Shown piece after piece: positions 13,530-49,443 of a DNA stretch of 64,000 nucleotides. Below the pieces are notes generated by a model. The model was not told the DNA's origin, made no database searches, and saw only the letters and a list, made by a program, of their open reading frames with translations. Position 1 is the first letter of the stretch; every line of letters begins with the position of its first letter. A program made the translations under genes and the position numbers. The DNA is from Candidatus Vallotia laricis. GTDB taxonomy: Bacteria > Pseudomonadota > Gammaproteobacteria > Burkholderiales > Burkholderiaceae. Location of the stretch: contig NZ_CP047399.1 of NCBI RefSeq assembly GCF_020541325.1, forward strand, positions 186,001 through 250,000. The letters are read 5' to 3'.

Positions 13530-13888
13530 TATACTGAGTTAGATTTAGTGTATATCGCGCCTAATAGCGGAAATATTTTTTATACGGTTGCTGTATATCG
13601 CATTCCATATAAATAGACGGTCAATAACACTATTTAACCTTGAGTAGCATTAGAAAACTAACTTCCAAAAAGTTTTGGACTAGTATAGCGCCTCAGGCTT
13701 AAATATTTCTGTGCTTGATGAGGATACAAGAGCTGTTTAGCTAAACTTATACCCAATTTCAGCATGAATTATTTTTGTCAATATGTAAATATTTAAAAAA
13801 TAACTATTCAGTTGTTGCGTTTAAGGAAAGCTTCCGCGGGAAAAAGTGATAAGAGTTCTATAACTCTTTTAAATATAAAGGAAGAAAA
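13530..13888. other. Gap between nrdB and the H1-like gene
   Basis: 359 bp without a gene. Just before the next start there is a 7-bp hairpin (AAGAGTT / AACTCTT, about 13851-13867) and then a purine-rich AAAGGAAG ribosome binding site. A promoter for the H1-like gene is expected here but I cannot place it. Confidence 0.45.
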
Positions 13889-14095
13889 ATGCTCTCTTCA
13901 AAAAAAGTAATAAATAAAAAAAAATCGCTGCCGACTAAGAATATTACCGTAAAGAAGCCAGTACAGGTTAAAAAAACCCAACAGAGGAAAACTTCCTCTG
14001 TTGGGTTAATGCCAGTTATACAATCTAATACGACAGTGAGGACTGTGTTAAATCCAGCTGCAGCATGGCCATTCCCAACTGGAAGTCGTCCATAG
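13889..14095 (+). CDS. Miniature histone H1-like DNA-binding protein
   Basis: A 68-aa, very basic protein. The N-terminal half is lysine-rich (SSKKVINKKKSLPTKN, VKKPVQVKK); the C-terminus LNPAAAWPFPTGSRP is what I recall as the tail of the Burkholderia histone H1-like alanine/lysine-rich protein encoded next to nrdB. Free-living forms carry a much longer KKAAAKK-type repeat, so the repeat has collapsed and lost its alanines. A strong AAAGGAAG site sits ahead of ATG 13889. A perfect 15-bp-stem hairpin occupies its middle. Role in nucleoid compaction is inferred from family resemblance. Confidence 0.72.
   Translation: MLSSKKVINKKKSLPTKNITVKKPVQVKKTQQRKTSSVGLMPVIQSNTTVRTVLNPAAAWPFPTGSRP
13975..14007 (-). 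terminator. Perfect hairpin inside the H1-like gene, terminator-like on the minus strand
   Basis: 15-bp perfect arms (13975-13989 and 13993-14007) with an AAC loop. Read on the minus strand the stem is followed by a T run, as in an intrinsic terminator. It would stop antisense transcription entering from the pfkB side. On the plus strand it is translated as part of the gene (KTQQRKTSSVG). Confidence 0.6.
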
Positions 14096-14532
14096 TAGGA
14101 TCGTCTAAAAATGAGATATCCTATACTGGGCTAAGATATTTCTTTTAGCACATCGCGCGTGTTCTGTTGTTTTACGGATGGCAACCGAGTGTGAACTGTT
14201 CATATAACATGCCTTGTTGGTTATTAATGCGCGATTCAGTGGTTGATGTTCTTGGGCGATATCGTGATTTTAGGCTGTTGGAGGTGTTAGTCTATTGGTA
14301 ATAGACTAACACTATTGGCATATAAAACATCGTTTTTTGTCATTAGCAGTGATTTAATCAATAACATATACTGTTTATATAGCAGTGATTTTTAGTGTTT
14401 TTGTTTGCGCGCGTTGTAACTATAACGTATATAGATATTAGAGATCTAGCAGACATAAAATAGAAAGTGGGTTACAAGCGAGAGGAGTAAAAGAAACCAT
14501 CAAGGTGATAAATACCTGTCTACTAATTAATA
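14096..14532. other. Convergent gap, H1-like gene to pfkB-family gene
   Basis: No gene. It contains a perfect 13-bp inverted repeat with a 3-base loop (14284-14296 / 14300-14312), a candidate bidirectional terminator though the T run is weak. An 11-bp direct repeat (AGCAGTGATTT) occurs near 14345 and 14381. Confidence 0.55.
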
Positions 14533-14569
14533 CATTCAACTATCGATTATTCTAATCGATAGTTGAATG
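14533..14569 (-). terminator. Hairpin formed from the 3-prime end of the pfkB-family gene
   Basis: Perfect 17-bp arms (14533-14549 and 14553-14569), loop of 3. In the mRNA the left arm is the last codons of the kinase gene, the loop is its final GAA codon and the right arm starts with the TAA stop. The downstream arm is therefore an inverted copy of coding sequence. The tail is AT-rich rather than a clean U run. Confidence 0.7.
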
Positions 14570-15485
14570 CGGCTTCGAAACGGTCAATAATTTCTATTCG
14601 ACTTAATGCGTAAGTTTGCGGTCCTTGATGCTCAATTTTAATTGAGCCCATCAGGCTTGCTAAGCGCCCAGTAGTAGACCAATCTAGTCCGCTTTCAATA
14701 CCATAGAGTAGGCCACTGCGAAAAGCATCACCACAACCAGTGGGTTCAACAATGCGTTCTGCGGGTACGACTGGAATAGCCTCTATACTGTTTCGGTGAT
14801 AAATCACCGCTCCCAATGCGCCGCGTGTGATAATCAACGCATCTACGCGCTGTGCGATGTCAGCTATAGACCAACCCGTTTTTTTGCTCAAAAGCCTCGC
14901 CTCGAAATCATTGACCGAAACATAGGTCGCAAGTTCAATTATTTGGCACAACTGAGTACAATTTAGGATTGGCAGACCTTGGCTTGGATCAAACATAAAC
15001 GGAATATCTGCTTTCGCGAATTGTTCCGCGTGCTCGTACATACCTTTTGCGCTATCTGGCGCGACAATCCCGAGCGTGATGTTTTGAGCGTCGCTAATAT
15101 GATTTAGGTGACTTAATAACATAGCCCCAGGATAAAATACGGTGATTTGATTGTTTTCTAGGTCAGTTGTTATCATTGCTTGTGCCGTGTGCGTGTTAGG
15201 CAAAACACGCACACAATCACGACGTATACTTAGTGAGTCGAGTCGATCTAAATAGCACTGAGCGTCAATTTCGCCGACTGTTGCCATGATTAGCGGATCG
15301 CCCCCTAATAACTTGAGACCATATGCGATATTCCCAGCGCAGCCACCAAATGCACGGTGCATAGATGGAACAAGAAAGCTTACGTTTAGAATATGAATTT
15401 GGTCTGGTAAGATATGCTCACGAAAGTGTCCTTCGAACATCATGATATTGTCGTACGCAAGCGAACCACAGATTAGCGTAGCCAC
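14547..15485 (-). CDS. PfkB-family carbohydrate/nucleoside kinase
   Basis: Ribokinase-fold kinase of the type annotated in Burkholderia as adenosine kinase or carbohydrate kinase; exact substrate unknown. 312 aa. The N-terminal PfkB signature region GGCAGNIAYGLKLLGGDP is present, and the C-terminal anion-hole motif reads PTGCGDAFRSGLLYG, with the catalytic Asp (the canonical form is DTxGAGD). The start MATLICGSLAYDNIM is the family N-terminus. It lies upstream of prmA and accCB as in Burkholderia, but the genes between it and prmA are gone. Its 3-prime end folds into a perfect hairpin spanning the stop codon. Confidence 0.9.
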   Translation of the reverse strand: MATLICGSLAYDNIMMFEGHFREHILPDQIHILNVSFLVPSMHRAFGGCAGNIAYGLKLLGGDPLIMATVGEIDAQCYLDRLDSLSIRRDCVRVLPNTHTAQAMITTDLENNQITVFYPGAMLLSHLNHISDAQNITLGIVAPDSAKGMYEHAEQFAKADIPFMFDPSQGLPILNCTQLCQIIELATYVSVNDFEARLLSKKTGWSIADIAQRVDALIITRGALGAVIYHRNSIEAIPVVPAERIVEPTGCGDAFRSGLLYGIESGLDWSTTGRLASLMGSIKIEHQGPQTYALSRIEIIDRFEAAFNYRLE

Positions 15486-16393
15486 AGTGGTGATTCCTTA
15501 TGATAGATTCAGTGCCGGATCGCTGATGTATGGGTGCGTACTGGCACCGGGTACAGATACGTTTGTCGATGCATAGCTCACCCCCCACCCCCCCTATTGA
15601 TGGGCCTCCCACGCCAGGAACGGTATAGAGTTTATTCTATGTGCAACAGGTATTGCGCCGTAATTTGAAGCAAAATTTCCGATACTTGTTTATTGCGCTC
15701 TTATCCAGCCCAATAGGGGGGGGTATGTGTTATCAGTACAATTCTAAAGGGGTTATGTACACCTGGGTTGTCTAGCAAGTTTACTAGTTACAGAACGTTA
15801 GGCTGTTGTCATATTTTTCAATTGTGTCAAGCTTTACTACGAACTAAGCAAGTCTTAATTATCATTACAGCTTTCGTTCTGATTTATTGAACTAGCGTGT
15901 TTTATACGCTCCATTGTGATTCTAGAACTGGATACACGGATATAACTTAAGCAGTGTTACGGTACGGTTTTTGTGGTGGGGTTTGTTCTATTGCGGTGTT
16001 CTATCAATATTATTGACTGAATATAAATGAGCGCCTCTTCTGAGGCTATATTACTGCGAAGTAATTCGCGCAATAAATCATATAGTTAGAATAAGCGAGA
16101 TAACTAGGGTGTGCACTTTTAAGGCCGTTATTAAAATAACGGCTCTCAGTAAATAGGCTTAGTGTCTCCCAGGTTAGACCATGATCTATTTACAATTCTG
16201 CCATCAATTAGTAATTAGAGCCATTCCGCCTCGCATCGTTAAAATAGCCTTATTATAATCATAATGCGCTAAGCTCTAGCACGATAATTGGCTGGTACGC
16301 TCTGGCAGGTGGTACTAAAGCCGAAAAGTGGTGGGTTAGTAGCGAACTCTAGGTTCGCAGATTACTATTGAACTCGCAAACCACGTACACCAG
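15486..16393. other. Gene-free gap with G/C tracts
   Basis: 908 bp where Burkholderia typically carries a DUF3426 protein gene and others between prmA and the PfkB-family kinase. I see no remnant. It holds C6-A-C7 (15581-15594), G8 (15716-15723), a perfect 9-bp repeat with 2-base loop (16124-16132 / 16135-16143) and a GCGAAC/GTTCGC stem near 16345. The two G/C tracts and their TATTG/CAATA flanks are mutually complementary over about 12 bases. Confidence 0.55.
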
Positions 16394-17326
16394 TTAATCT
16401 ATTTGGCCTCTATCTGTAATGCTAATTAACTCTTTAGGCCGACACCCGGCTAAGCAAACCCACCCTTCCCGTTCGCACCATATGGAAAGATGTATATAAC
16501 TTGCGTAGGCTGCCACGACTGCGTCTACCTGGCATGTTAGTATACCGGATAGTGCAAGTCTTCCTCCTGGCTTTACCTTAGAGGCTAGAATGGAAGCCAT
16601 GAGTTTCAGCGGATTAGACAGTATATTAGCAACAACTATATCGAATTTGTTTGCTGGGCACTCATGGGGGAATTTATACGTGATCTCGACATGATTATGC
16701 TTACTGTTACGCTGAGTTAATTCAATCGCCTGTGGATCAATATCGACACCCACAACTGGTGAGGCACCACATTTGCATGCGAGTATCGACAGGATACCAG
16801 AGCCACATCCATAGTCGAGTAGAGAATTTCCAGCCTGAACGTGCTGCTCGATCCATTCCATGCATAAGCGCGTAGTCGGATGTCTTCCGGTACCAAAAGC
16901 GAGCCCCGGATCGAGTTTCAATACTACAGCGTCCTGCTTTGGCGCATCGTGCCATGTTGGCACAACCCAGATTTTCTGGCCAATATGGATTGGCTTTAAG
17001 TGAGTTTGTATTAGTTTAAGCCAATCTTGTTCGTGAACGTTGCGGGTAGTGAAAGCCGGCAGCATAGGCATTTCGGCCTTATTCGCAGCAGCTACTAATA
17101 AAATAGTGGGATCCTGCTTCGACCCTAGCATCGCAATCACCCGTGAGTGCATCCATACAACCTGACCCGATATGAGTCCGGATTCATCGAATAGCGCTTG
17201 TTCATACGGCGTTTCTGAATCTGCATCTTCGATGCAGACTGATAATACGCCAAGCTCGAGTAACGCGTCTGATAAGGACTCGGCGCTATTGCGATCAACT
17301 TCTACGACAACTTCGCGATAGCTCAT
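16394..17326 (-). CDS. prmA: Ribosomal protein L11 methyltransferase
   Basis: SAM-dependent methylation of ribosomal protein L11. 310 aa; an N-terminal L11-recognition domain is followed by the methyltransferase domain with [15 protein letters not shown], the SAM loop [23 protein letters not shown] and the catalytic-site [10 protein letters not shown]. Start [11 protein letters not shown] is standard. Last gene of accB-accC-prmA, 24 bp after accC, the same operon order as in Burkholderia. Confidence 0.96.
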
Positions 17327-17350
17327 GTCTATTGAGCCTATTTAGGGGAC

Positions 17351-18697
17351 TTACTGCTTAGTGGCCAATTTATTTTCAAGATGATGAATGCTCGTACCAC
17401 CCTGGATAAACTTGGCGTCTAGAATTAATTCCCGGTGCAATGGAATATTCGTCTGAATACCCTCGACCACCACTTCAGATAATGCAATACGCATCCGGTT
17501 AATCGCCTGTTCACGAGTTGTGCCGTACGCAATAATTTTCCCGATCATTGAATCATAGTTGGGCGGTACATAGTAACCATTATACGCATGTGAGTCTACT
17601 CGAATGCCTGGTCCACCTGGCGCGTGCCATGATGTGATTCGTCCTGGCGATGGTGTGAACTTGAATGGATCTTCCGCGTTGATTCGACATTCAATTGCAT
17701 AACCGCGAAATGTAATATCACGTTGTCGTATCGATAGTTTTTCACCTGCAGCGATACGGATTTGCTCCTGAACAATATCTACGCCTGTGATTAGCTCGGT
17801 CACCGGGTGCTCAACCTGGATCCGAGTATTCATTTCAATAAAGTGAAATTCGTCATTCTCATACAGAAACTCAAACGTGCCAGCACCCAAGTAGCCCATT
17901 TTTTTGCATGCTTCAGCACAACGATTGCCAATCCGGTCGATGAACCTACGTGCGATATGAGGTGCTGGCGCTTCTTCGATTATTTTTTGATGGCGCCTCT
18001 GCATCGAGCAGTCGCGTTCACCAAGCCAGATTGCGCTTTTAAACGAGTCAGCTAGTACCTGGATCTCGATATGTCTAGGATTCTCCAGGAATTTTTCCAT
18101 ATAGACTTTAGGGTTATCGAAAGCGCGGGCTGCCTCTTCACGTGTCATGTTGACTGCGTTGACAAGTGCCGCTTCCGTATGTACGACTCGCATACCACGC
18201 CCACCACCACCGCCGGCAGCTTTGATAATAACTGGATAACCAATCGAGCGCGCAATCTTGATGATCTCTTTTGGGGCGTCTGGTAAAGCGCCTTCTGAAC
18301 CCGGGACACACGGAACTCCCGTCTTAATCATTGTTTGTTTAGCACTCACTTTATCTCCCATGAGGCGGATGGTCTCGGGACGTGGTCCAATAAACGTGAA
18401 GCCAGATTGTTCAACCCGTTCCGCAAAATCAGCGTTCTCAGATAGGAAGCCATAGCCCGGATGAATCGCCTCAGCATCGGTTACTTCTGCTGCACTAATA
18501 AGTGCTGGCATGTTGAGATAGCTCAGGTTTGATGGGGCTGGACCAATGCAGACTGCTTCGTCAGCAAGGCGCACATACTTTGCTTCTTTATCGACCTCGG
18601 AATAAATAACAACCGTTTTAACCCTAAGTTCGCGGCATGCTCGCTGAATGCGCAATGCAATTTCTCCGCGATTAGCGATGAGTATTTTCTCAAACAT
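17351..18697 (-). CDS. accC: Acetyl-CoA carboxylase, biotin carboxylase subunit
   Basis: ATP-dependent carboxylation of biotin on AccB, first half-reaction of malonyl-CoA synthesis. 448 aa; starts [16 protein letters not shown], has the ATP-grasp glycine loop GGGGRGMRV, the [15 protein letters not shown] and [19 protein letters not shown] segments and the catalytic [14 protein letters not shown]. The C-terminus is a few residues shorter than usual. 15 bp downstream of accB. The carboxyltransferase genes accA and accD are not in this window. Confidence 0.97.
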
Positions 18698-18712
18698 TAG
18701 CAGAGTGACCTA

Positions 18713-19180
18713 TTAGTCAATTACAAATAGAGGTTGACCATATTCAACAGCCTGGCCATTTTCAGCAAGGATTTCTTTGACCATGCCTGTCTTGTCGGAT
18801 TCGATCTCGTTAAGTAGTTTCATGGCTTCAATAATGCAAACTATTTGGCCTGCTTTAATCGACTCACCTATTTGTACATATGAATCACCTCCTGGTGACG
18901 GTGCCCGGTAAAATGTGCCGACCATCGGTGAGGTAATCACATGATCCCGCGATAAAGTAATAGTATTTGAAACTGTGCCGGACTCAACTGACACAGCAGT
19001 ATCTTGAATTCCGGTCGCTCCTATTATTTTCGGTGCAGCTGTATATTGTGCCTGGGGAAAATAGACCGGTGGTGCGTTCTTAACAATCCGGACTTTTCCT
19101 TCGTTTTCGGTGACTTCAAGTTCTGAGATGCTAGACTCGGATACTAGGTCGATCAAGGTTTTAAGTTTGCGTAGATCCAT
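18713..19180 (-). CDS. accB: Biotin carboxyl carrier protein of acetyl-CoA carboxylase
   Basis: Carries biotin between AccC and the carboxyltransferase. 155 aa from ATG 19180 ([13 protein letters not shown], the family start); an earlier in-frame start adds 12 unlikely residues. The N-terminal helix is followed by a flexible linker, then the biotinyl domain with the modified lysine in EAMKLLNEI near residue 120 and the preceding protruding-thumb region ([15 protein letters not shown]). Head of the accB-accC-prmA operon. Confidence 0.96.
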
Positions 19181-21595
19181 TCGGAGTCCCCAAATTTTAT
19201 ATGGCGCTCTGTCCATACCTAGAATGGTAAAAGTGTAGTTTTATGCGAAAAAAACATCAATGCGAACTCTCTTGGCGCTCCAGTGTGAAATCCAGCTTAT
19301 AAAAGATCTTCATTAGTCAATTCTGCATCTCACGCTTTCTGCTAAGTCTGAAAAATACGACGCTGTGGGAAAGCCTCATATCAACGCATGTTTAGGCAAA
19401 GCAAAAGAAGTGTTGATTGCGTCAAAAATTGCAATACTGATATACCTAAAAGCAGTAGGCTGATTAGCATCAAGCTATCTTTTATCACGGAGCCGGGGTG
19501 ACAGCTTATAATACTCTCGCCGTCATGATTGTGCCGGAGTCAATTCACCGTCCATGCAGGGGGTGGTTTTTCTCTACTAGTGCTAACCTGACTTGTGTGG
19601 GTATCATACTAACTACAAATAGCACAACTATAGATCGCGGTGCTGAGTAGATGTAGATAAGAGCCGCTTACGACTCGATGCGAAAACTTATGAGAGTTTT
19701 TTACTGCGAAATTGCGATTTTTTTGCTGCTGATATAAAGTATGAAGGCATCGAATTTTTTTGAGAAAACAGTCGGTAACTACGCAAACCCCCATAATTTT
19801 CTAAGAAATCATTCAGTTCAAGCAGCTTACGTGTTTACCTGATCGATTGCTATAACGAACAACAACCTACTATTTCGGTTGCTGAATTGTCGAATAAGTC
19901 TCTGATAGCCGAGGCCGCCGTCGGATGAGTTAATCGTTTATTATATGAGTGAGAATTACATGTGCTTTATTTTCAATTGAGACCAACATCCCGAAGCACA
20001 CGCTTTAGTTTATATAACTGAGTTAAAATTGGGATGGTATGGATATACCCTCATATATGAAGGATGCACAGGAACACGCCACGAAGCTTACTGAGACAAC
20101 TTGACTTCGATACTAGCTTCCTACCAAATTCAAGTGAATAAGCTAATTTGGGTAGGAGAAATCATTGCTCTCGCGAGCTATGGGCTTTTTTAGTATCTAC
20201 TGCGTCTATTTACCCACATGAAGTACCAACCCAGATAGATACTATGTGCTCATTTTTTAGAAAATCTGCATAGATAGACAGATGGATACTAACCGCGTTA
20301 CGTTGCTTACGACGCTAGTTAAGTAGCAATTTAAGTTATATGTAATATGTTATTTGGTTTAGTACGGTTTTGCGAAACCGCACTAGGTGCGATAGCTACA
20401 TATTATTATGTAGCAATGACAGATATTCTGAGTATTTCTTTCTTAGCGGCTATTCAGCGGAAACTTTGCCACTGCTTTACCTAACTACCATTGCATAGAA
20501 ATATATTTCTGTGGTTTACGAAAAATCCTGAAGGCTTGATTTCTTAATCTGTGATGCATTCTTTAATACTTAAGCGTTTTATCTGTTGAATACTGATTTT
20601 TAGGTGCTCTTGAGTTCAATTGTGTAAATTTCTCTAAAATAGCACGGATTTTATGTAATATTGATCACTAATTTTTTATCGACCGGTTCTTTCCATGCTT
20701 CCGCGCATTCTGAGCCGTCAGCGGGCGGTTAGCGTGAAGATTGATAGCTGGCGCTGCCAATTGATAAAGTGACTCCAATAGATAAACATTTTCTGTAAAT
20801 GGTCTTACTTTACCACTTTCCTCCAAGTGACAAAGTAAGAGAATAAATGTGCTACTGTACTGAAAATTCTATTGTCTATCAAGCTGCGAAATGTGATGTA
20901 ATTTCTCATATAAAGGCAAGCAAACCTATATTTTTTTTGATTAATGAGCACTTAAAAACAATAAAATTGTACATGATGAAGATGCAGTTTACAGCAAGCT
21001 TCAGTGAATTTAGTGAACACTGGCCTGGTATGCAACTGTAGTATGTCCTTACAAGAACAAGTATAAGTTTCGGTTTGGAGCCGAGTCGGGCGATTTTAAT
21101 GCACTATAGTGTCCAAGTTGGACCCGGCGCTACATAAGATGATCACGCTAATCAAGCAACTCGTTTGGTGGCTTTATTCGGTGGCTTTAATGAGCACCTG
21201 TAGTAGATTGAGATATAGTGATTTACCTGATAGGTTTTTACCTATCTGCCTAAACATAATTAATTGATTATGATATCCAACTGATATTGGATATCAAAGT
21301 ACCACTATGGGTGTATCTAGGCGGACAGTCGTTGTAGCATGAAGGGAGTCGATTATTTTCGAGCCGCACTCTCTCTATAGGTTATCGTGTGTTTCAGGTC
21401 TTCAGGTCGATTCGACCCCGCGACTTGCAAGGTATTATTTAATTTCGAGTTATTATTTAATCAGTAACTTTATAACGTAATTAAATAACGCCCTTAAGTT
21501 TTGTAGCATCTTCTGCCTACTAAGCGCTGACCTGTAGAGGAGTAGAACCAGGTCCTTAGACAGTGCATACGGCTTTTTTGTTTTGAGGGTGCTGA
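19181..21595. other. 2.4-kb gene desert between accB and rnb
   Basis: No credible gene on either strand. In Burkholderia this interval carries aroQ, a TlpA-like thioredoxin gene and others. Inverted repeats are frequent: about 20118-20156 (12-bp arms, one bulge), 20395-20402/20407-20414 (8 bp, loop 4), 20802-20840 (9 plus 5 bp, nested), 21229-21235/21240-21246 (7 bp, TTTT loop) and 21271-21280/21287-21296 (10 bp, loop 6). A 64-codon open frame at 20847 is not convincing. Confidence 0.6.
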
Positions 21596-23578
21596 GTGAA
21601 TGTTTTTTTTGAGGAATCCGGTGGCCTTAAGGTTGGAACGGTATTGAACCAACATGGTGATACGTTTCAGGTCGAGTTACTGAGTGGGCGTCGCGCTAAG
21701 GTTAAGAGTAAGGACGTGCTTATTGAGTTTAACAACCCGAGCGCCGCTGATCTAATTCAACAGGCTGATGCGGTATCAAAGGAAATCGATCTAGATTTCT
21801 TGTGGGAAATTTCTCCGTTAGATAAGTTCTTTTTCCTCGACCTAGCTAATGAGTATTTCGGTGGTACGCCAGATCCTGTGCAAAAGAGTGCACTAGTACT
21901 TTGCATGCATAGCTCGCCAATCTACTTCCGACGTAAGGGGCGAGGACAGTACCAGCGTGCGCCTGAAGAGCAGTTAAAAATGGCAATCATAGCGCTTGAG
22001 CGGCGGAGACAACAATCTCTTATCCAGCAGCGGTATGAGAATGAGCTAAAGGCCGGCAGACTACCCTCTGCTTTTGATGGAAAAGTGCTTAGTTTGCTCA
22101 CGCGTGCAGATAAAAATTCGATTGAATACAAAGTGTTAGAGGCAGCTGCGCTGTCATTAGGTAAGTCAGCAGCGCAGCTGATGTTGGACGTCGGTGGTAT
22201 CCAATCAGCACGCGAGTTGCACGAAGCGCAGTTCTTGTCTGAATATTTCCCACATGGTACTGGTTTCCCTGCATTGAACGTTAGTCCACTGCCAGAAGAT
22301 CTAAGTGAGGCGATGGGCGTGCAAGCATTTTCCGTCGACGATATGTCTACCACCGAGATAGACGACGCTTTTTCAGTGCAACGTCTCTCAGGAAATCACG
22401 CTAGAATTGGGATTCATATCGCAGCACCTGCGCTAGGGATCGAGAACGGCGATGCTGTGGATATGATCGCCCGTGCTCGACTGTCAACAGTCTACATGCC
22501 GGGCAGAAAGATCACTATGTTGCCAGATAATTTCGTCGGAACATTTACCCTAAAGGAAGGTGGATTGCGGCCAGCGGTATCACTATACTTGATTATCGAC
22601 ACCTCTACACAGGATATCGTAATATCCGAGACGGTAGTTGAGCGCGTATATATTCTCAGTAATCTGCGACATAACGTGTTAGATGAGATTATTACTGAGC
22701 AAACGCTACAGGACGGTACCCACGACTACCCGCATAAGTATGAAATAGAGGTGCTCTGGCCTTTTGTTAAATCGCTTTACGAGCAACGTCAGAGAGCACG
22801 TATCGGCTACGGTCTTAGGCGCGAGGTACCGCACAATCTTGATTACAGCTTTCATATCTACGGCGAGCACGTTAACATTACACCACGTCGCCGCAGTTCG
22901 CCACTGAATCTAATCGTTGCTGAACTTGCAATTTTAGCTAACAGCCATTGGGGTGCGTTTCTACATGCATATGGTGTTCCGGGTATCTATCGCGCACAGC
23001 GCGCGTTCGGCCCGCATCGAACGAGAATGCAGACTACGCCAGCACCGCACGAAGGGCTGGGGGTTGTGCAGTATGCGTGGAGTACTTCACCGCTTCGTCG
23101 GTATGTTGACTTAGTTAATCAGTGGCAGATTTTAGCGTGTGTACAACATGGAATAACAGCAAAGTTAGCTGCTCCTTTCAAGCCGAAAGACGCAGAACTA
23201 TACGCGATAGTTCGAAATTTTGACGAAACCTATGTAGCCTATGCTGACCATCAGCGGTGTATGGAACATTTTTGGTGTCTGCGCTGGCTAAAGCAAGAAT
23301 GTCGGGACCGGGTAACAGCTACTGTCGTTAAAGACGACACTGTACGACTCGAGGAAGTACCGCTGCTTTTACACGTTCCAGGATTGGGGGTGCATGCTCG
23401 AGGAGTGCGTGTGCTAATCGAGGTAATAACGATTGATGAATTGCGTGTTGAGGCGTTATGCAGACTTATCAAGGTGCTAGATGTGCAGAGCATCACGTGT
23501 AGTGACGAGACGCATAAGAATATAGATGTCTCGTTAGACACGAATAGCGGAACCGCTGTGGAGGCGGCGGCGAGGTGA
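21596..23578 (+). CDS. rnb: Ribonuclease II family exoribonuclease
   Basis: Processive 3-prime to 5-prime exoribonuclease. 660 aa. The RNB catalytic domain shows the acidic cluster SVDDMSTTEIDDAFSV near residue 250, GIHIAAPA, MPGRKITMLPD and, at its end, TSPLRRYVDLVNQWQ. The N-terminal region (VFFEESGGLKVGTVL) matches the Burkholderia form, which is longer than E. coli RNase II at that end. Start GTG 21596 with GAGGG about eight bases upstream. The long acidic C-terminal tail of Burkholderia homologues is mostly missing. aroE and mtgA, which usually follow, are absent. Confidence 0.93.
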   Translation: MNVFFEESGGLKVGTVLNQHGDTFQVELLSGRRAKVKSKDVLIEFNNPSAADLIQQADAVSKEIDLDFLWEISPLDKFFFLDLANEYFGGTPDPVQKSALVLCMHSSPIYFRRKGRGQYQRAPEEQLKMAIIALERRRQQSLIQQRYENELKAGRLPSAFDGKVLSLLTRADKNSIEYKVLEAAALSLGKSAAQLMLDVGGIQSARELHEAQFLSEYFPHGTGFPALNVSPLPEDLSEAMGVQAFSVDDMSTTEIDDAFSVQRLSGNHARIGIHIAAPALGIENGDAVDMIARARLSTVYMPGRKITMLPDNFVGTFTLKEGGLRPAVSLYLIIDTSTQDIVISETVVERVYILSNLRHNVLDEIITEQTLQDGTHDYPHKYEIEVLWPFVKSLYEQRQRARIGYGLRREVPHNLDYSFHIYGEHVNITPRRRSSPLNLIVAELAILANSHWGAFLHAYGVPGIYRAQRAFGPHRTRMQTTPAPHEGLGVVQYAWSTSPLRRYVDLVNQWQILACVQHGITAKLAAPFKPKDAELYAIVRNFDETYVAYADHQRCMEHFWCLRWLKQECRDRVTATVVKDDTVRLEEVPLLLHVPGLGVHARGVRVLIEVITIDELRVEALCRLIKVLDVQSITCSDETHKNIDVSLDTNSGTAVEAAAR

Positions 23579-24065
23579 TGAAATAATCTTTTCGTCCCAT
23601 GCCTGTATCTAGAGACTTAAAAAGGTATTGTGACTGACTGCAGTCTGATTGGAGGTGCAGTTGATATTCTATTCTAGAATAGGCTTAAATGCAAGCTTAT
23701 AGGTATATTACTCTGTCGGTCAAGAATTACTTAGCAGATAACGCATAACTTATTTATATCTCGCGATAAGATCTATCAGTGGGAATTTTCTTGATGCTTT
23801 AGTTAGCTTTAGTTAAATGAGGTAACGGCATTTATTATATACGGGTGACGGCGCATATATCTTTTAAGAAAAAAGTTCACACAAAATCTATGTCAATACA
23901 TTGACGCTGGAATGAATGATGATAGCTAAAAACAGGATGATCAGTACTGCGAGATCTAGTGGGAACTGTAATTAGATATTCTGTCTTATGACAGAATATA
24001 ATTCACCGTAGCAATACTATTTCTCGGGAAAAAACTTTTTATGATACTTTTTTGCAAACCTAATC
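23579..24065. other. Gap between rnb and pyrF
   Basis: 487 bp, AT-rich, no gene seen. Short repeated TTTAGTTAGCTTTAGTTA near 23800 and an ATTCTGTCTTATGACAGAAT hairpin near 23978. Nothing else I can interpret. Confidence 0.5.
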
Positions 24066-24878
24066 ATGTCTTTTATTACCACCCTTGAGGGCTCTTGGCA
24101 GCGCACACAATCATTGCTATGCGTTGGGCTTGACCCTGAGCCATCGCTCTTTCCACCGCATCTATCTGGCTATGATGATGCAATATTCATGTTCTGCCGC
24201 GATATCGTTGATGCCACTGCGCCATATGCTAGCTCATTTAAGCCGCAGATCGCCTATTTCTCTGCGCATAGAGCAGAAGATCAACTCGAGGCATTAATCG
24301 CGCATATTCACTTACGTCATCCGGGTCTGCCAGTAGTACTCGACGCTAAGCGTGGCGATATCGGTAGCACTGCCGAGCAGTATGCGCGTGAAGTATTTGA
24401 GCGATATCAAGCCGATGCAGTAACAGTCAATCCTTATATGGGGTTCGACTCGATTAAACCGTATATTGCGTATCAGGATAAGGGTGTAATGATTTTATGC
24501 CGAACGTCGAATCCAGGTGGCTCGGACTTGCAGCTTCTTAATATTGGGGGGAGACCTCTATATCAGCATATCGCGGCACTTGCTGCCGAGGAATGGAATA
24601 CAAGCGGACAGCTTGGGCTCGTCGTAGGCGCAACTTTTTCAAAGGAAATTCATGCGGTCCGCCAGCTTGTCGATGTAATGCCACTACTGATCCCCGGAAT
24701 TGGTGTGCAAGGCGGTAATATTAAGGCAGCAGTTAATGCGGGTCGCATAGCTAATGGCACTGGCATGATCATCAACTCGTCGCGCGCGATTTTATACGCT
24801 GGTAATGGTGAGGACTTCGCATGCTCTGCAGCTGATGCTGCATGCGACATGCGTAACACGATTAACGCTTACCGCTAA
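24066..24878 (+). CDS. pyrF: Orotidine 5-phosphate decarboxylase (type 2)
   Basis: Last step of UMP synthesis. 270 aa, the longer subfamily found in Burkholderia and mycobacteria. Catalytic lysine and aspartates are in [18 protein letters not shown] near residue 93; substrate-binding segments CVGLDPEP at the N-terminus, [10 protein letters not shown] and [10 protein letters not shown] follow. ATG start directly gives the family N-terminus. It is convergent with pgpA; the Burkholderia neighbourhood maeB-thiL-pgpA-pyrF is conserved. Confidence 0.95.
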
Positions 24879-25062
24879 CTAAGCTGACGGATTTCCAGTA
24901 CTTTTTCGTACGATAGCTCAAGTATAATAGGCTACCTATTCTGATAGCGGATATGCTTATAGCCGCTATTACTCGACGACAACTGGAATGATAATCATAA
25001 GCTGCACGTTTCTCAAAACGTCAATATGTGTTTTTAGTAAAAGGAACTTTTAGTCAGCTAAC
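24879..25062. other. pyrF-pgpA convergent spacer
   Basis: Contains a 7-bp stem (ATAGCGG / CCGCTAT, 24944-24950 and 24963-24969). Nothing else recognised. Confidence 0.4.
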
Positions 25063-25088
25063 CTCTCAATATTACTTAATATTGAGAG
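25063..25088 (-). terminator. Hairpin over the pgpA stop codon
   Basis: Perfect 12-bp arms (25063-25074 and 25077-25088) with a 2-base loop. In the mRNA the left arm covers the last codons (SLNI), the loop is the AG of the final Lys codon and the right arm begins with its last A and the stop. This is the same architecture as at the end of the pfkB-family gene. No U run follows. Confidence 0.65.
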
Positions 25089-25641
25089 AGTGTACTAGCG
25101 TCATGACACTGAGCGTGAAGAGTGCCGCAATGATGTCATCGAACATGATGCCAAAACTACCCGATAACCTTCTATGAAAATAGCGGATTGGTGGTGGCTT
25201 AACTATGTCGAATAAGCGAAACACCAGAAAAGCGCCGAGTTGGTAAATACAGTTTGTGGGCATTACAAGTAGCATGACTACCCAAATTGCAACAATTTCG
25301 TCCCAAACTACAGCACCCGGATCTTTCTCGCCCATATGTCGTGCTGTGAAGCCGGTAAAACCGCACCCAGTGGCAAAGCTAATGGCAATCAGTACCCACC
25401 ACTGCAGAACGCTTAGGTAAGGATTTAATACGATAAACAATATCCATCCAAATATAGTTCCTATTGTACCCGGAATTACCTGTGATAGTCCACTGCCAAA
25501 ACCAAATGATAACACGTGTAAAGGATGGGACAACATGAATCGCATAGTAGCGCTTGAGCGTGGTTTTGCATCAGCATCGGACTGAATCACGAGCGCTCTG
25601 CGCGTCTGATATGGATTAGGGTGGGAGGAGTCATTCTTCAT
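25072..25641 (-). CDS. pgpA: Phosphatidylglycerophosphatase A
   Basis: Dephosphorylates phosphatidylglycerophosphate to phosphatidylglycerol in the inner membrane. 189 aa from ATG 25641, which overlaps the end of thiL by 11 bases, as expected for translational coupling. Motifs: GSGLSQVIPGTIGTI, the catalytic WDEIVAIWV and FRLFDIVKPPPI, and a final FDDIIAALF; several hydrophobic helices. The coding end is part of a perfect hairpin. Confidence 0.93.
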   Translation of the reverse strand: MKNDSSHPNPYQTRRALVIQSDADAKPRSSATMRFMLSHPLHVLSFGFGSGLSQVIPGTIGTIFGWILFIVLNPYLSVLQWWVLIAISFATGCGFTGFTARHMGEKDPGAVVWDEIVAIWVVMLLVMPTNCIYQLGAFLVFRLFDIVKPPPIRYFHRRLSGSFGIMFDDIIAALFTLSVMTLVHSLNIK

Positions 25642-26656
25642 TGAAATGATCAAAACTGCGCCAGGTTGTGCTAATTGGAAATCCGGACCCATCGAACCAA
25701 TGCGCTTTGTGCGCGTTAATCACGCTGGTATTGCCTTCGGCTGAGTCAGCAAGGTTGTGTATTGTACCTATCCGCGTAAGCGGCACGCCAATGCGTGGAA
25801 TAAGTGCAAGCAGCGTGTCACGGCGACTGGGCGGCGCCGTGAAACATAGCTCGTAGTCATCACCACCTTCAACGGCGCATTGATATTGAATCGACAGGGG
25901 TTGCGCACGCAGTGTAGATGAGCGTGGCAGTGAGTCGACATCTACACGCGCCGCTACCTTAGAACGCTCTAAAATATGTGACAAATCTCCGGCTAACCCA
26001 TCGGACAAATCAAGCGCCGCATGCGCAACACCTCTTAGCTCCATGCCGAGAGCAATACGCGGCTCTGGCATTTGAAGAGCATAACGTAATGCAGGTAATT
26101 CATCTGGAGCGAGCGGCCATTCGCCGCGCAGTGCACCTAGTGCTAGGCGCGCGTTACCCAGCTCGCCGGATACCCAGATATCATCGCCAGGCTGGGCAGC
26201 ATCGCGGCGTAACGCTTGGCCACAGGGTACGTCACCAAACACGGTGATACAGATATTCAGGGGTCCCGCAGTAGTATCTCCGCCCACCAACTCGCAGCCA
26301 TAGCGATCCGCTAGCGCGAATAAACCGTGCACAAATTCATCGAGCCAGTCCTGGCGTGACGCGCTTACATCCGGCAGTGCTAGTGCTAATGTGAACGCTC
26401 GTGGTTCAGCTCCCATAGCCGCTAGATCTGATAAGTTAACCGCTAACGCTTTATGTCCTAGTGTTTCTGGAGGGACGTCAGAGAAGAAATGGCATCCTTC
26501 GAGAAGCATATCGGTAGACACTGCCAATTCGTGATCTGGTCGCCCAGCAAGCAAAGCGCAATCGTCTCCAATTCCTAGTACGGCTGCATGGCGTGGTTGC
26601 CTTCGCTGAGCAGAATAGCGATCAATAAGGCTGAATTCAGATAAAAATGTCGGCAT
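25631..26656 (-). CDS. thiL: Thiamine-monophosphate kinase
   Basis: Phosphorylates TMP to the cofactor thiamine pyrophosphate, which the transketolase in this window needs. 341 aa from ATG 26656 (PTFLSEFSLIDRY); further upstream starts lack homology. Motifs: GIGDDCALL, STDMLLEGCHFF, NLSDLAAMGAEP, VGGDTT, ALDLSDGLAGDL and EGGDDYELCF. It is divergent from maeB with 163 bp between starts, and overlaps pgpA. Confidence 0.95.
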   Translation of the reverse strand: MPTFLSEFSLIDRYSAQRRQPRHAAVLGIGDDCALLAGRPDHELAVSTDMLLEGCHFFSDVPPETLGHKALAVNLSDLAAMGAEPRAFTLALALPDVSASRQDWLDEFVHGLFALADRYGCELVGGDTTAGPLNICITVFGDVPCGQALRRDAAQPGDDIWVSGELGNARLALGALRGEWPLAPDELPALRYALQMPEPRIALGMELRGVAHAALDLSDGLAGDLSHILERSKVAARVDVDSLPRSSTLRAQPLSIQYQCAVEGGDDYELCFTAPPSRRDTLLALIPRIGVPLTRIGTIHNLADSAEGNTSVINAHKAHWFDGSGFPISTTWRSFDHFNEE

Positions 26657-34350: not shown

Positions 34351-34403
34351 GATAAATATCACGTTGTGTTCAAATATTACCTGAACACAACGTGATATTT
34401 ATC
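34351..34403. repeat. 22-bp-stem perfect inverted repeat
   Basis: Arms 34351-34372 and 34382-34403 are exact reverse complements with a 9-base loop. TAATTATG (34333-34340) and CATAATTA (34403-34410) could add an outer stem. It is 235 bp past gapA. Confidence 0.95.
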
Positions 34404-34473: not shown

Positions 34474-34519
34474 CTGAATTAATCAATACTACTTAGCTAA
34501 GTAGTATTGATTAATTCAG
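34474..34519. repeat. 46-bp perfect palindrome with no spacer
   Basis: The 23 bases 34474-34496 are the exact reverse complement of 34497-34519, centred on TTAG|CTAA. It is the longest uninterrupted palindrome I found in the window and shares no sequence with the 22-bp-stem repeat 70 bp away. Confidence 0.97.
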
Positions 34520-37047: not shown

Positions 37048-37542
37048 CCCTCCATGCAGAAAGTTTCTGACCTTACCAGTAGCATCAGTTCGAGCTATTT
37101 ATAGCACTTTCGCTGATAGATGTTTAAAATTGATATGTTCAGGCTGCTCGCGGGTATCGGATTTTGGGTATTAATATAGGGGTGTGCATTTCGCGATATG
37201 CTAGCTGTATCATGCAGCAAAAACTAGTATTTATCCGTCTACAAGAGTAACGTTTTTTATTATCACAACACTGTTCGTGACTCATAGTCTGAATTGCAAT
37301 AGTTGTTGCATGCTATGCCCTGCATGCAACAACCTTAACTTTATGCAATATCTACGATAGATTACGTATATAACTTTCGTGCCGACTAATACTGCACTGC
37401 CGTGCAGTGCGTCTACATGTATTGATAAGGGACAAACTCTGTCACCCGAATGCCAGAAAACCTATCGCTTTCTTAATATAAGGTGCATACACGGGCTCTT
37501 TACATTAAGAAAGCGATAGGTTTTCTGTTACGGACGACCATT
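37048..37542. other. Gap between dapB and leuS with three inverted repeats
   Basis: 495 bp replacing exbB/exbD-type genes. Perfect 12-bp arms 37302-37313 / 37322-37333 (loop 8), a 7-bp ACTGCAC/GTGCAGT stem near 37391-37408, and the 24-bp-stem repeat at 37454-37527 described separately. No gene remnant recognised. Confidence 0.65.
37454..37527 (+). promoter_or_regulatory. 24-bp-stem inverted repeat in the leuS leader
   Basis: Arms 37454-37477 and 37504-37527 are perfect reverse complements with a 26-base loop. The downstream arm ends 15 bases before the leuS ATG, just ahead of the weak GGA ribosome binding site. If transcribed, it would form a very stable leader hairpin; if the promoter lies in the loop, only one arm is transcribed. 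Function unknown. Confidence 0.75.
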
Positions 37543-40662: not shown

Positions 40663-41775
40663 ATGCAACTTCGTATAGATGCTCTAGAGTCACATCTCGC
40701 TAAGATGTTAGGTCGCTTGTACATCGTGTATGGCGATGAGTTGTTGCTCGTTCAAGAGGCTGTAGCACATATCCGTAGCGCAGCCCGCGCGGCCGCTTTT
40801 ACTGAGCGAAGTATACTCTCTGTCGATCGTGGTTTTGATTGGAGCTTGCTGCTTGGTGCTATGCAATCGATGTCGTTATTTGGCGAGCGGCAGATAGTCG
40901 AATTGCGCATTCCGACTCAAAAGCTAGACAAAAATAGTGGTGAGGCATTAAAGACGTTGGCGGCATTAGACAATCCCGATGCGCTAGTATTGATTACATT
41001 ACCGAGGCTAGATGTCGTAACGCAAAAGACCTCATGGTTTGCTGCATTACTTCAAGCTGGCATAGCGGTACGTATCGACACAATCGAGCGCACACAGCTA
41101 CCAAACTGGATTACTAAACGGCTCGCAGCACAGCAACAAAGCTTTGTCCCGGGTGATGAAGGTCTGCAAACATTGCACTTTATCACCGAGCGGGTTGAGG
41201 GTAACCTGCTTGCCGCCCATCAAGAAATTCAAAAACTGGGCTGGCTATATCCAGCCGGTGAATTAACGCTCAAGCAAGTGAGGGATGTAATGCTTAACGT
41301 CGCTCGCTATGATGTGTTTAGTCTCAACGAGACAATGCTCTCTGGCAATGTGCTCCGCTTATCACGGATGCTTGATGGATTGCGTGGGGCAGGTGAGACG
41401 CCGGTGTTAGTTCTTTGGGCTATTGTAGAAGAAATTCGTGCGCTGATAAGAATTAAGCGGGGGCTGACTGCCGGAAAATCATTAGCAATCTTGATGCGTG
41501 AGAATCGCGTTTGTAAGATGTGCGAAAAGCTCATGCCTCTCGCATTGCAACGCGTTAATGAATCTTTGCTTGAGCGGGCACTGTGGTTGGCGGTACGTCT
41601 AGATCGACAGATTAAAGGGCTGTGCAGCGTGGCGAGGGCAATGCATCTGAGCATCGAACCTGCTGATACATTACTGCCACCAGCGGATCCGTGGGATGGT
41701 TTATTTGATCTAGCGATGATGATTGCACAGCCCGGCGCTATAGATACTGCCGCTGTGCGAAAGATAGGCTCGTAA
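40663..41775 (+). CDS. holA: DNA polymerase III delta subunit
   Basis: Clamp-loader subunit that opens the beta clamp. 370 aa; begins MQLRIDALESHLAKMLGRLYIVYGDELLLVQEA with the delta-type nucleotide-fold start, then the clamp-binding ILSVDRGFDW-SLFGERQIVELRIP region and the helical C-terminal domain (LSRMLDGLRGAGETPVLVLWAI). Clear Burkholderia context: leuS-lptE-holA-proA. The stop codon lies in the loop of a small hairpin (TAGGCT / AGCCTA, 41765-41780). Confidence 0.93.
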   Translation: MQLRIDALESHLAKMLGRLYIVYGDELLLVQEAVAHIRSAARAAAFTERSILSVDRGFDWSLLLGAMQSMSLFGERQIVELRIPTQKLDKNSGEALKTLAALDNPDALVLITLPRLDVVTQKTSWFAALLQAGIAVRIDTIERTQLPNWITKRLAAQQQSFVPGDEGLQTLHFITERVEGNLLAAHQEIQKLGWLYPAGELTLKQVRDVMLNVARYDVFSLNETMLSGNVLRLSRMLDGLRGAGETPVLVLWAIVEEIRALIRIKRGLTAGKSLAILMRENRVCKMCEKLMPLALQRVNESLLERALWLAVRLDRQIKGLCSVARAMHLSIEPADTLLPPADPWDGLFDLAMMIAQPGAIDTAAVRKIGS

Positions 41776-41813
41776 GCCTACGGGAACTCATTCCATTGCT
41801 ACGATAGCTGATT

Positions 41814-41837
41814 AGCTGATTAGCTGATCGTAAGGCC
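41814..41837. repeat. Three tandem TAGCTGAT units
   Basis: Three perfect copies of an 8-bp unit in the holA-proA spacer; a small slippage-type repeat. Confidence 0.9.
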
Positions 41838-43181: not shown

Positions 43182-44243
43182 AAAAGCACTATGAGTATTT
43201 TTAATATCATATGAATCGCTTCATAGTTTGCAGAACTATACGGTCTTCTATTGATTGTCGTAAATATAGCGCTCTAAGCAAGCCTGCGTAGTCGAATATT
43301 TATTGGTAGTAGCTGTTGGTAGCGCAATTTATAATACCTAATTTCTACTCTAGAGCTTTTATACACATATCGTATCTACGATAATATATATGTATAAAAG
43401 TACAATGTATAATATATTGTTTTCTATATTAGAGCAATATGCGAACTGTTACCCTGATCAGCAGTATAAAATATTTAGAAAATTTCTAGTATTTAGAGTT
43501 GTTTGGTGCGGTCGTTTTTTGGCGTGATTGTTGTAATCTTGTGTAAGGACTTGTAGCATTGCTTAGCTGTTTACTAAATATTAGTAAACTCGACATCAGA
43601 ATTATACTACTTAGATTATCTTATATCTAAGTGCAGCTAGTGTTTAACACTTACTTCCATTACATAGTTGCTACTATGCTATCTATAGACGTGGCTGTAT
43701 TTACACATAGTGTATTAGAAATGTTTAGGTATTTATACTAGATTCATACACAGTTTTTCGGAATTCTATGTAGTCTATGCTGATGAATACTCAATTATAA
43801 GCCGAAAGACAGTTGGATACGATTAAGAATCTTTAAAACGTGTGTAATGATTGCTTATTAAATAAGATACATGCCTGTATGCCATTTTTCGAAATCCTAA
43901 TTTCAAATTATCGAAATCTTCTGTAGTAGAGCTCATAGCAGAGGCACAAAATTATAAGCTAGTTTCTCTTAATAAGATATATAGAAAAATCGAGAATTAT
44001 TTAGAGGTGTGTATGCTGACACTACACTCATCCACCAAAATTATATAATAGCAATGCTAATTGCTATTATAATTCGCCCTAAGATCGATAAATATGAGAA
44101 AACTTTAATCAACCTAATTGAGTTTATTTAGACTTTCCATTAAACTCAATAACACTAAATACTAGTCTAAGCTTCTGGTCTATCTAGCGACACAGACTAT
44201 CTGGCTTCATTGCGTGTTCTGCCCGTTTCCAGGAGCGATTTTC
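43182..44243. other. Gene-free gap between proA and edd
   Basis: About 1.06 kb, strongly AT-rich, no gene remnant recognised. Inverted repeats: 43356-43400 (10-bp outer and 7-bp inner stems), 43569-43577/43581-43589 (9 bp, loop 3), 43609-43616/43625-43632 (8 bp), 44044-44055/44060-44071 (12 bp perfect, loop 4) and 44117-44126/44141-44150 (10 bp, loop 14). The edd ribosome binding site AGGAG is at 44231-44235. Confidence 0.65.
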
Positions 44244-46749: not shown

Positions 46750-49443
46750 AGAACTAGCCATTAAACTCAGATAAGTGCCACGAGATTAAAATAGAGAGAA
46801 ATTAGCGAATACGTTAGTACCTGTATATAAAATATATATAACCCTCGAAAGAGAAAACATATAGTATTAAGTAATATATCTAGGATAAATTATTGGAAAT
46901 AATCGTTTCGTTAGTTAATCTTAATATTCTTACTTTATTTTTTCTCTTACTTAAGACATGCCTAAAATAGTAGAATAATAATCTTTAGTATATGCTAATA
47001 AATGTTTGTATTTTTATACAAAAAATGTATATTCAGATTCGACATAAATAGCATTTCAAACTTTACGTTCGGAAATCGCGTAGTAAAAGTAAGCATACTC
47101 TCTTCAGCTTGCTTCGTACTCCTGACTAGGGATAGTTTATTGCAATAGTACCATTATCGTTTTTTGTTCTTATATAAATTGGATGGTATTTAATAGTGTA
47201 AAAAATCCTATAAATTTTTTACAGACTAACTTAAATAGTACTTAATCTAGCCTGGACTATATTTAACGTGCGGACCATGCTTAAGATTTATATAAAAAAC
47301 CGAAACAATAGTAAGCATGTGTTCATGCAAAAAATCTAAAACTATATTTGTATATACAACTTTAAGCAAATAGATTTATCTATCTGTTTTATAGAAATAG
47401 TGTACTAGCCTAAGTATATCTATCTTAGGCTAGTACCGTAGATTACCATCTTATTCACCTATAAAAATATAAATAAGCTTTAAGCACTAAAACTAGTAAG
47501 AGTAAGTAATTAAATATAACAATATAAATTATGTCTATATATCAGCCTCCAGCTAATATATAGACATAATTTATAATCAACAAATTTCTATCCTCGTTAA
47601 TAGACGCATAAGACTAACAGATTCTATTTTCTACACGCTGTTTTGTTATTAGCCTAGCTATAAATCCTACAATTTCTTGATAAAATGCCTGTTAAGGGAA
47701 ACATTCGAAAAACTATTTCTATACCTATATGAAAAATCAATTTTAAGGTTTAGTTAACTGCATAAATAATAGAGCTGATTAAAAACAAAATATTATAGTT
47801 GATGCGATTTAAACCGTTATGTCACTGCATCATTTACCTAGTAGATTTTAACTACTGATAACAAAAATTGTTATCTCACCTATATGGGAAATATGGGACA
47901 TTAGCTTGTAACAAGATCGAGAATAATCAATGTAGTCTTATTTAACAAGGCAAAAGAAGTCTAGGATTAAATAAAAATAGCATTTTTCTAATTGAAATAT
48001 ATTCAGAATAATTTTTATAAAAAACTGACAATTTACTCGAAATTAAGGCATCACCGACGCACGAATTAATCGGAGTTTTACAGTACTTCAAATAGAGTAT
48101 AAATAGTCTAATAATAAATTGTTATATGCTGTATATGTAGTTTACAAAAAATAGGTTACGCCCTAATTATTAATTAATATTAGTAGGTCTATCAAATAAA
48201 TATAATTAATGTTACTTGGTGCTTCCGAATACTAATTGTCTGATTTAAAATACAAAGTTATGTTATTAAACAGCATCGCTAACAAGAGATTTATTTATGA
48301 CCTCAATAGTATATCGTACTGGGTACGACGATGCGTGGTGTATTATCTCATTCATATAGAGTCAAGCGCGCAAACGATCAGCTGAACTAGACCTGATGGT
48401 GCCCTTACTGCATTGAATCAAAGTTAAACTAAACGTAATTATCAAATTTACCCACCGTATTGCTATTACCTAATATAATTGCTGTAGCATTGTGCACATA
48501 GAAATTTTTTTCCGAAATTTCATCATATAAAATTGACCACTTATTAAATCGGGAATTGCGTTGAATATGAAATCATTTTTTAAATTTTACGGAAAATATA
48601 AGGTAAGTCTTTTAATCAATTACTTTTCCGAAAAATATAGTCGATAGTAAAATCACAGAAATACACGTACTCGCATATATTTCAACTTAGCTCAAGCAGC
48701 TATACAGGCTACTAATGCATACGTGAAAAACTCGTACTGCCTCAGTATATTTCGTTAAATAAACGATGGGAACAGATTATTACTGCCATATCTCCTTCTA
48801 TATAATTAACACACTAACTACGCCGAAATTCGAAAAGTAAGATGGGTAATAACATAATCTTAGATAACATTATATCGCGCGATAGTCGCGCAGTATTGCG
48901 CAAAAGTAATATTTCAAATAATGGGAACCGATAGATGTTATCGTACCCCCCCCCGTTTTTTGCATCACCCCAGGTTACTGGGAACTTACTTACGCAAATG
49001 GCGCAATAATTACCCGCTAGCATCCATATTAATGTTATTAACATACAATATTCGTATTCTTATGTGTGTTTATTCTTAATGTTCAGCTCCATCAGATTCG
49101 AATCCGTCTCTCTTATCAAGAGATGCTGACAACGTTCTAGTCACAGATCACATGCAGATCTACTTAAATTACCGTATGATCTACGGTAATCCTATAAGTA
49201 ATGTAATATCGTAATTCGACTTATTTGTCTTTGGAGTATATAAGAGACTTGTGTAAATAAGATACACACGATAGTGCTAATAGTATTTACAGCTTGAATG
49301 TTTATTAGAAACTAAACCACAAATAATCGCCATAGCATATCTAGGCTGCATAGCTTACTTAGGCATATTAATGCAATTCGTTATGCCACATGCTTTTATC
49401 AAGGGCCGCCCCTGTTAAACCCTACCCCCCTCCATTCTGTGCT
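46750..49443. other. 2.7-kb gene desert
   Basis: Largest gap in the window, extremely AT-rich, with no credible gene on either strand; Burkholderia has pilT upstream of yggS, but no trace is readable. Inverted repeats: 47402-47414/47424-47436 (13 bp, loop 9), 47524-47542/47556-47574 (19 bp perfect, loop 13), 47867-47874/47878-47885 (8 bp) and 49168-49176/49182-49190 (9 bp, loop 5). A C9 tract is at 48946-48954. Confidence 0.65.

Follow-up and report, generated by a model that had tools for sequence, protein, structure and literature searches.

Quasipalindrome correction, a template-switch mutation at inverted repeats, was reportedly described in bacteria by van Noort et al. in 2003, and Ladoukakis and Eyre-Walker are said to have found that prokaryotes have an excess of short inverted repeats. 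Here, we examine such repeats in Vallotia, a group of adelgid symbionts. The starting point is a 64,000-nucleotide window of the "Candidatus Vallotia laricis" chromosome (bases 186001 to 250000 of contig C1 in a two-contig genome of 1.126 Mb in total), where a pfkB-family sugar kinase gene and pgpA each end in a perfect hairpin built from the last codons, the stop codon, and their inverted copy. We propose that these hairpins are, very probably, scars of short-range template-switch mutation. The two are ordinary members of a large, genome-wide set of unrelated hairpins.

The closest described cases come from several organisms. Template-switch mutation with quasipalindrome correction is known from Escherichia coli quasipalindrome (QP) reporters (PMC7202029), arm homogenization together with spacer inversion has been described in Saccharomyces genes (PMC8604942), and template switching can create RNA hairpins (PMC8794818). 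Some endosymbionts have a high frequency of inverted repeats of at least 6 bp with at most one mismatch (PMC10434271). We found no report of hairpins in Vallotia in the part of the open-license literature that was searched, where the main text of two of three Vallotia papers contains neither "inverted" nor "hairpin."

The two focal hairpins (Table 1) are exactly as an earlier sequence-only reading of this DNA had described them in coordinates, arm lengths, spacers, and stop position, and its gene names (pfkB family, pgpA, and holA) were correct. The pfkB arms are 100% complementary, with the coding (upstream) arm at 14569-14553 and the downstream arm at 14549-14533. The stop codon TAA (14549-14547) provides the first three bases of the downstream arm, as does the pgpA stop (25074-25072) in its own hairpin. 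Folded as RNA, the pfkB and pgpA hairpins have predicted energies of −23.6 and −15.2 kcal/mol (z = −8.9 and −4.7, respectively), and 0 of 200 shuffles folded as well. Their GC content is 25 to 29% and, as had been pointed out, they have no T-run, unlike known intrinsic terminators. A third hairpin, at the holA stop, had been presented as a weaker version of the same structure. It does exist, with 6-bp arms, but its RNA fold is at chance level (z = −1.0; 35 of 200 shuffles equal or better). Hairpins of at least 6 bp (loop of at most 4) overlap 3 of the 39 window open reading frame (ORF) stops versus 0.94 expected in shuffles, a count that also falls to chance level once the two long hairpins are set aside, and we do not regard the holA hairpin as part of the phenomenon. 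Just 3′ of holA, at 41806-41829, a short tandem repeat of AGCTGATT-like units was read by eye.

To place these hairpins in their genomic context, we counted perfect hairpins whose arms were 10 bp or longer and whose spacers were 0 to 10 nucleotides (nt) and compared them with dinucleotide shuffles made separately for ORF and non-ORF DNA. ORFs were called as the longest frames of 100 codons or more, an approach that misclassifies pseudogenes and some spurious ORFs. The data are assembled sequences from one genome per species. For the genome of the window (G000), the sample comprised the window and 20 more 20-kb stretches of the same contig (464 kb); those of three further Vallotia genomes covered 472 kb (G003), 272 kb (G002), and 274 kb (G005). 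Sampled stretches are labeled with L-numbers (L059, L067, etc.). G000 contained 112 hairpins, compared with ∼6.5 in shuffles. With arms of at least 15 bp, there were 39 in G000, 18 in G003, 5 in G002, and 15 in G005, and none in the shuffles. Perfect, closely spaced inverted repeats are therefore in clear excess over chance. The longest arms in the G000 list are 27 bp, and spacers are mostly short: when up to 80 nt was allowed, spacers of 21 to 80 nt numbered only 2, 5, 5, and 2 in the four Vallotia samples.

The comparisons also drew on four large-genome relatives in the same genus (G001, G004, G006, and G007; 3.3 to 3.8 Mb), which we take to be Mycetohabitans, whereas G005 is close in size to the other Vallotia genomes. 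In 280 kb of G007, no hairpin of at least 15 bp was found; noncoding DNA is scarce there, but the Vallotia noncoding rate would still predict 5.1. Two reduced genomes of the same family did show an excess, namely, G016 (L139 to L141), whose 100-kb sample held 8 hairpins with arms of 12 bp or more (0.2 in shuffles), and G012 (14% GC; L154 to L157), whose 80-kb sample held 12 with arms of 15 bp or more (0.7 in shuffles). The feature is therefore not confined to Vallotia. No hairpin of at least 15 bp occurred in 200 kb of G018, where just 2.6 were expected in its scarce noncoding DNA, and small samples of G008 (32 kb), G014 (54 kb), and G010 (20 kb) held 1, 0, and 0, respectively.

The relatives reveal how individual gene ends changed. 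In the four large genomes and G005, pfkB ends in TTY GGY TAY CGC TTG (TTT or CCT), followed by TGA or TAA with no inverted copy; the copy is also absent from G002. In G003, the gene ends in TTA TTC TAA followed by a partial inverted copy, and in G000, it ends in TTA GAA TAA followed by the full 17-bp copy. The spacer is flipped: GAA in G000 is the reverse complement of TTC in G003 (3 of 3 bases). At argF, the last codons and stop are kept, and the stop is followed by ATTCTA in G003 and ATTTTA in G002. In G000, these bases read TAGAAT, the exact reverse complement of the G003 hexamer (6 of 6 bases), and the inverted copy of the last codons comes next; this downstream arm is absent from G002 and G003, the two genomes covered by the argF comparison (argF of G005 and G007 lies outside the samples). 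Judging from these alignments, the form seen at pfkB and argF (arm, inverted spacer, and inverted arm) is the one that a single copy-back event would give directly. In pgpA, the stop directly follows an aligned CTT (G007) or CTC (G002), while the G000 gene runs on through AAT ATT AAG TAA, three codons beyond those stops, with its TAA within the downstream arm; the event here probably moved the stop codon. The suggestion that these gene ends underwent inverted duplication by template switching is thus well supported, both by the relatives without a full downstream arm and by the opposite spacer of G003 at pfkB and argF.

Similar changes occurred inside genes. The fumarase gene carries a 48-bp coding palindrome (L067:4611-4658) in which 16 to 18 of the 24 pairs match in the four large-genome relatives, compared with 24 in G003, 24 in G005, 23 in G002, and 22 in G000. 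The left arm was rebuilt to pair with the right arm, converting an imperfect ancestral repeat into a perfect derived one by the copying of one arm and changing GPTTATRMDK to GPTTSSRMD in all four Vallotia genomes. Two residues were altered in this way, and the residue that follows GPTTSSRMD varies among Vallotia. Later, in one Vallotia lineage or another, both members of 7 of the 24 pairs changed, with only 3 of 96 cells of the comparison broken. Palindromes that are perfect in G000 and imperfect in relatives were also found in lysC (G002 and G005), tatD (G002, G003, and G005), and glyS (G003). These three illustrate the process and do not prove it, as they were found by choosing perfect hairpins first.

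For a broader view, we took 217 hairpins (arms of at least 11 bp and spacers of at most 12 nt) from the four Vallotia samples, with the fumarase palindrome counted in more than one genome. A relative could be anchored on one flank and an arm for 48 of them. The best relative pairing in register was below 90% in 43 cases, at least 90% in 1, and perfect in 4; that is, the state of most comparable hairpins is lineage specific. Among the 38 with spacers of at least 3 nt, the spacer was forward in 26, inverted in 5, mixed in 2, and undecided in 5. Most forward spacers were coding (21 of 26, which makes 21 of the 24 coding hairpins forward), and the 14 hairpins outside or across gene boundaries had 4 inverted, 5 forward, 2 mixed, and 3 undecided spacers. 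Though the numbers are small, this pattern is consistent with template switching in which spacer flips are purged from genes by selection.

As to how the scars form, we infer that a growing strand would leave its template at a short inverted repeat during DNA synthesis, copy part of the opposite strand or of its own sequence in reverse, and then return. One possible outcome would turn a coding arm, spacer, and downstream sequence into the coding arm, the inverted spacer, and the inverted coding arm. In the other, two imperfect arms would be made identical and the spacer left unflipped. Inside genes, only the versions that keep the protein working would survive. At a gene end, the coding arm would be under selection and the downstream side free, so the scar would come to resemble the last codons and stop followed by their inverted copy.

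Several observations weigh against template switching as the general account. A comparison with a relative was possible for only 48 of the 217 hairpins; for the rest, either the intergenic DNA has diverged too far or the orthologous stretch lies outside the samples. A set that starts from perfect hairpins will by its nature show relatives as less well paired, and forward spacers fit arm correction without proving it. The polarity of the pgpA change is only partly resolved, as G003 and G005 also have different ends. Some hairpins, such as that at L059:12557 and L061:3816, are kept in relatives with changed stems and may be functional. Finally, the link to repair-gene loss is loose. The excess over shuffles and the paired changes in fumarase, on the other hand, escape the bias of selecting perfect hairpins first.

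We looked for repair genes whose loss might explain the prominence of hairpins in Vallotia. No match to SbcD or to the ExoI C-terminal family was found in the eight genomes of the genus, the large ones included, and SbcC gave weak, sub-cutoff matches in four of the eight; among controls, the SbcD model matched 13 of 14 genomes, and the ExoI model matched E. coli only. Since SbcD and ExoI are equally unmatched in the large genomes, we rejected the idea that losing SbcCD or ExoI triggered the excess specifically in Vallotia. RecJ, XseA, and RecB scored over the cutoff in all eight genomes, and their loss was likewise rejected as a trigger. The mismatch repair genes differ between the two groups: the four large genomes have an intact mutS, of which the four Vallotia genomes retain only short, stop-riddled pieces, and mutL is over the cutoff in the four large genomes, with just a 35-residue fragment, in G000, among the Vallotia genomes. 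The pseudogenes of V. tarda include mutL and mutS (PMC8692619).

Loss of MutS and MutL in Vallotia could thus be the specific cause of the excess, and the hairpin-rich G012, which has no mutS or mutL match, fits this idea. We nevertheless consider it unlikely. G016 has intact mutS and mutL yet carries the 8 hairpins of at least 12 bp given above, and G018 has no match to either gene yet lacks hairpins of at least 15 bp, although so few were expected there. (G010 also has neither gene and no hairpins, but its sample is too small to count.) For mismatch repair loss as the sole cause, G016 is a point against, and G018 does not decide the matter. The simplest account is that Vallotia chromosomes probably gather many scars because much of their DNA is decayed and noncoding, which would allow scars to remain where the hairpin-processing nucleases SbcCD and ExoI are missing; scar formation may also be faster.

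An improbable alternative to template-switch scars is that the hairpins were selected as terminators or 3′-end RNA stabilizers in a genome that lost its old ones. The predicted stability of both focal hairpins as RNA would suit such a role. The sequence-only reading had treated gene ends as the target of the process and the hairpins as possible new terminators or RNA-stabilizing structures. Their positions do not bear this out. Hairpins with arms of at least 11 bp overlap only 4 stops in the four Vallotia genomes (3 in G000, 0 in G003, 1 in G002, and 0 in G005), compared with 8.7 (3.5, 2.5, 1.3, and 1.5, respectively) expected when those centered in noncoding DNA or in the last 20 nt of an ORF are re-placed randomly in such DNA. 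For hairpins centered in noncoding DNA, 2 overlaps were observed and 4.0 expected. Density within 50 nt of 3′ ends was 1.4 times that far from genes across the four genomes (P = 0.17) and twice as high in G000 alone (10 hairpins; P = 0.07), but most hairpins are far from gene ends (113, with only 20 that close to a 3′ end). On the 5′ side of genes, hairpins were depleted to half (P = 0.018), which could be taken as favoring a role at 3′ ends but can equally be read as selection against hairpins in leaders. Gene-end specificity is therefore without significant support in either the stop-overlap or the distance-class tests.

Terminator signals point the same way. T-rich flanks were found in 5 of 134 cases in G000 and in 3 of 84, 1 of 44, and 1 of 56 in the other three Vallotia genomes; the pooled count is about twice the background (10 of 318 versus 5.6 expected; P = 0.08), and it leaves 308 of 318 flanks that are not T-rich. 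Spacerless palindromes (23 of the 156 hairpins whose arms are 12 bp or longer) and hairpins inside ORFs (8 of 69 in G000) fit poorly with terminators, as does the pairing below 90% of most comparable relatives. A pattern scan of 13500-25700 gave 7 terminator-like sites versus 9.7 in shuffles and listed neither focal hairpin, the 2-nt loop of pgpA being outside the loop range of the scan, and neither has the G+C-rich stem and T-run 3′ of the stop that mark intrinsic terminators. A few hairpins may be terminators, such as that at 13975-14007, which has a T-run, or the one kept in G003 and G005 (L059:12557 and L061:3816). As a general account, however, terminator or RNA stability roles are unsupported, and the focal hairpins are the gene-end members of a general set, even if single transcripts could be stabilized case by case. 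What stands of the sequence-only reading overall is template switching; gene-end targeting and the making of new terminators are not supported.

We also considered an assembly or amplification artifact, given that amplification chimeras can be inverted copies. This explanation is very hard to reconcile with the presence of hairpins in four separate Vallotia genomes, with fumarase arms that differ between genomes yet stay paired, and with the partial pfkB arm in G003, and we assign it little weight. Seeding by mobile or repeat-family elements, such as miniature inverted-repeat transposable elements (MITEs), repetitive extragenic palindromic (REP) sequences, or other palindromic elements, is suggested by the many compact, symmetric units scattered across intergenic DNA but was rejected for lack of shared sequence and has next to no plausibility: only 5 similar pairs occur among the 156 hairpins with arms of at least 12 bp in the four Vallotia genomes (including orthologous sites and one identical pair), and the arms at pfkB and argF are the genes' own codons.

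Of the 18 perfect hairpins in the window whose arms are 10 bp or longer, only those of pfkB and pgpA overlap an ORF end; Table 1 gives the coordinates of the features discussed here. The two longest-armed intergenic hairpins listed, at 34351-34403 and 34474-34519, lie just 70 bases apart. An imperfect inverted repeat at 37454-37527 (33-nt arms, 91% complementary, 8 nt apart) overlaps the start of an 882-amino-acid (aa) ORF (37483-40131), i.e., a gene start and not a gene end. Elsewhere in G000, identical 21-bp hairpins occur at L059:12557-12607 and L061:3816-3866, and the hairpin is kept with changed stems in G003 and G005. Unlike most of the set, this hairpin is probably functional and conserved, and it may lie where a duplicated operon ends.

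Table 1. Coordinates of hairpins and genes in the window and, where an L-number is given, in other sampled stretches
Feature	Coordinates	Strand	Arms (bp)	Spacer (nt)	Location or remark	Pfam
Perfect hairpin	13975..14007		15	3	Intergenic; also terminator-like (T-run) on minus strand	
Perfect hairpin	14284..14312		13	3	Intergenic	
Perfect hairpin	14533..14569	-	17	3	3′ end of pfkB-family gene	
pfkB-family sugar kinase gene	14547..15485	-			312 aa	PfkB
Perfect hairpin	15187..15214		11	6	Inside pfkB-family gene; imperfect in G002, G003, G005	
Perfect hairpin	25063..25088	-	12	2	3′ end of pgpA	
pgpA (phosphatidylglycerophosphatase A)	25072..25692	-			206 aa	
Perfect hairpin	34351..34403		22	9	Intergenic	
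Perfect palindrome, 46 bp	34474..34519		23	0	Intergenic	
Perfect hairpin	37302..37333		12	8	Intergenic	
Weak hairpin	41765..41780	+	6	4	At holA stop	
Perfect hairpin	44044..44071		12	4	Intergenic	
Perfect hairpin	47402..47436		13	9	Intergenic	
Perfect hairpin	57873..57899		11	5	Inside ORF; imperfect in G002, G003, G005	
argF gene-end hairpin	L062:17800-17845					OTCace
Fumarase gene	L067:4279-5802					Fumerase

If the hairpins are template-switch scars, Vallotia offers a countable record of template switching in a lineage with large-genome relatives, where the density of scars can be compared with repair-gene loss. Two cautions follow. Hairpins at gene ends in decaying genomes should not be taken as designed terminators, and paired compensatory changes are no proof of selection on RNA, because the fumarase pairs sit in coding DNA and follow an arm-copying event. 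More speculatively, and with the balance tilted against it, template switching in Vallotia might be fast enough to be a main sculptor of the genome, rewriting gene ends (with stops moved, or remade by reverse complementing the final codons, as in TTA to TAA), altering residues in central enzymes such as fumarase, and keeping coding palindromes perfect. In that case, when symbionts lose genome maintenance early on, a characteristic hairpin signature would be left behind, by which the decay phase could be recognized and dated.

Inverted repeats also lie beside stop codons at the intrinsic terminators of E. coli (PMC6060812). Most such repeats in E. coli are parts of terminators and are reported to be enriched near stops; in Vallotia, neither T-rich flanks nor stop overlaps are significantly raised. 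The coding palindromes of Nematomorpha mitochondria (PMC6649704) are similar in being perfect inverted repeats inside genes, with arms that evolve in concert, but they are far longer (up to 284 bp) than anything in the G000 list. As in the RNA hairpins made by template switching (PMC8794818), one event can make a perfect stem, and compensatory changes need not mean selection on RNA. Whereas that work concerns RNA genes, the Vallotia hairpins are mostly in noncoding DNA, with stop codons hit incidentally.

The closest likeness is to bacterial quasipalindrome correction, in which imperfect repeats become perfect, a nearby inverted copy serves as the template, and several bases change per event. 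Unlike the E. coli QP reporters, Vallotia displays evolutionary scars across a symbiont genome, and the process is known here from sequences and not from rates. As in the Saccharomyces genes (PMC8604942), arms were made identical (fumarase, lysC, and glyS), spacers were inverted (pfkB and argF), and amino acids changed. Vallotia differs from that system in being a bacterial symbiont, with deeper divergence and single events less cleanly isolated. Quasipalindrome correction, arm homogenization, and spacer inversion are thus known processes that are unusually visible in Vallotia.

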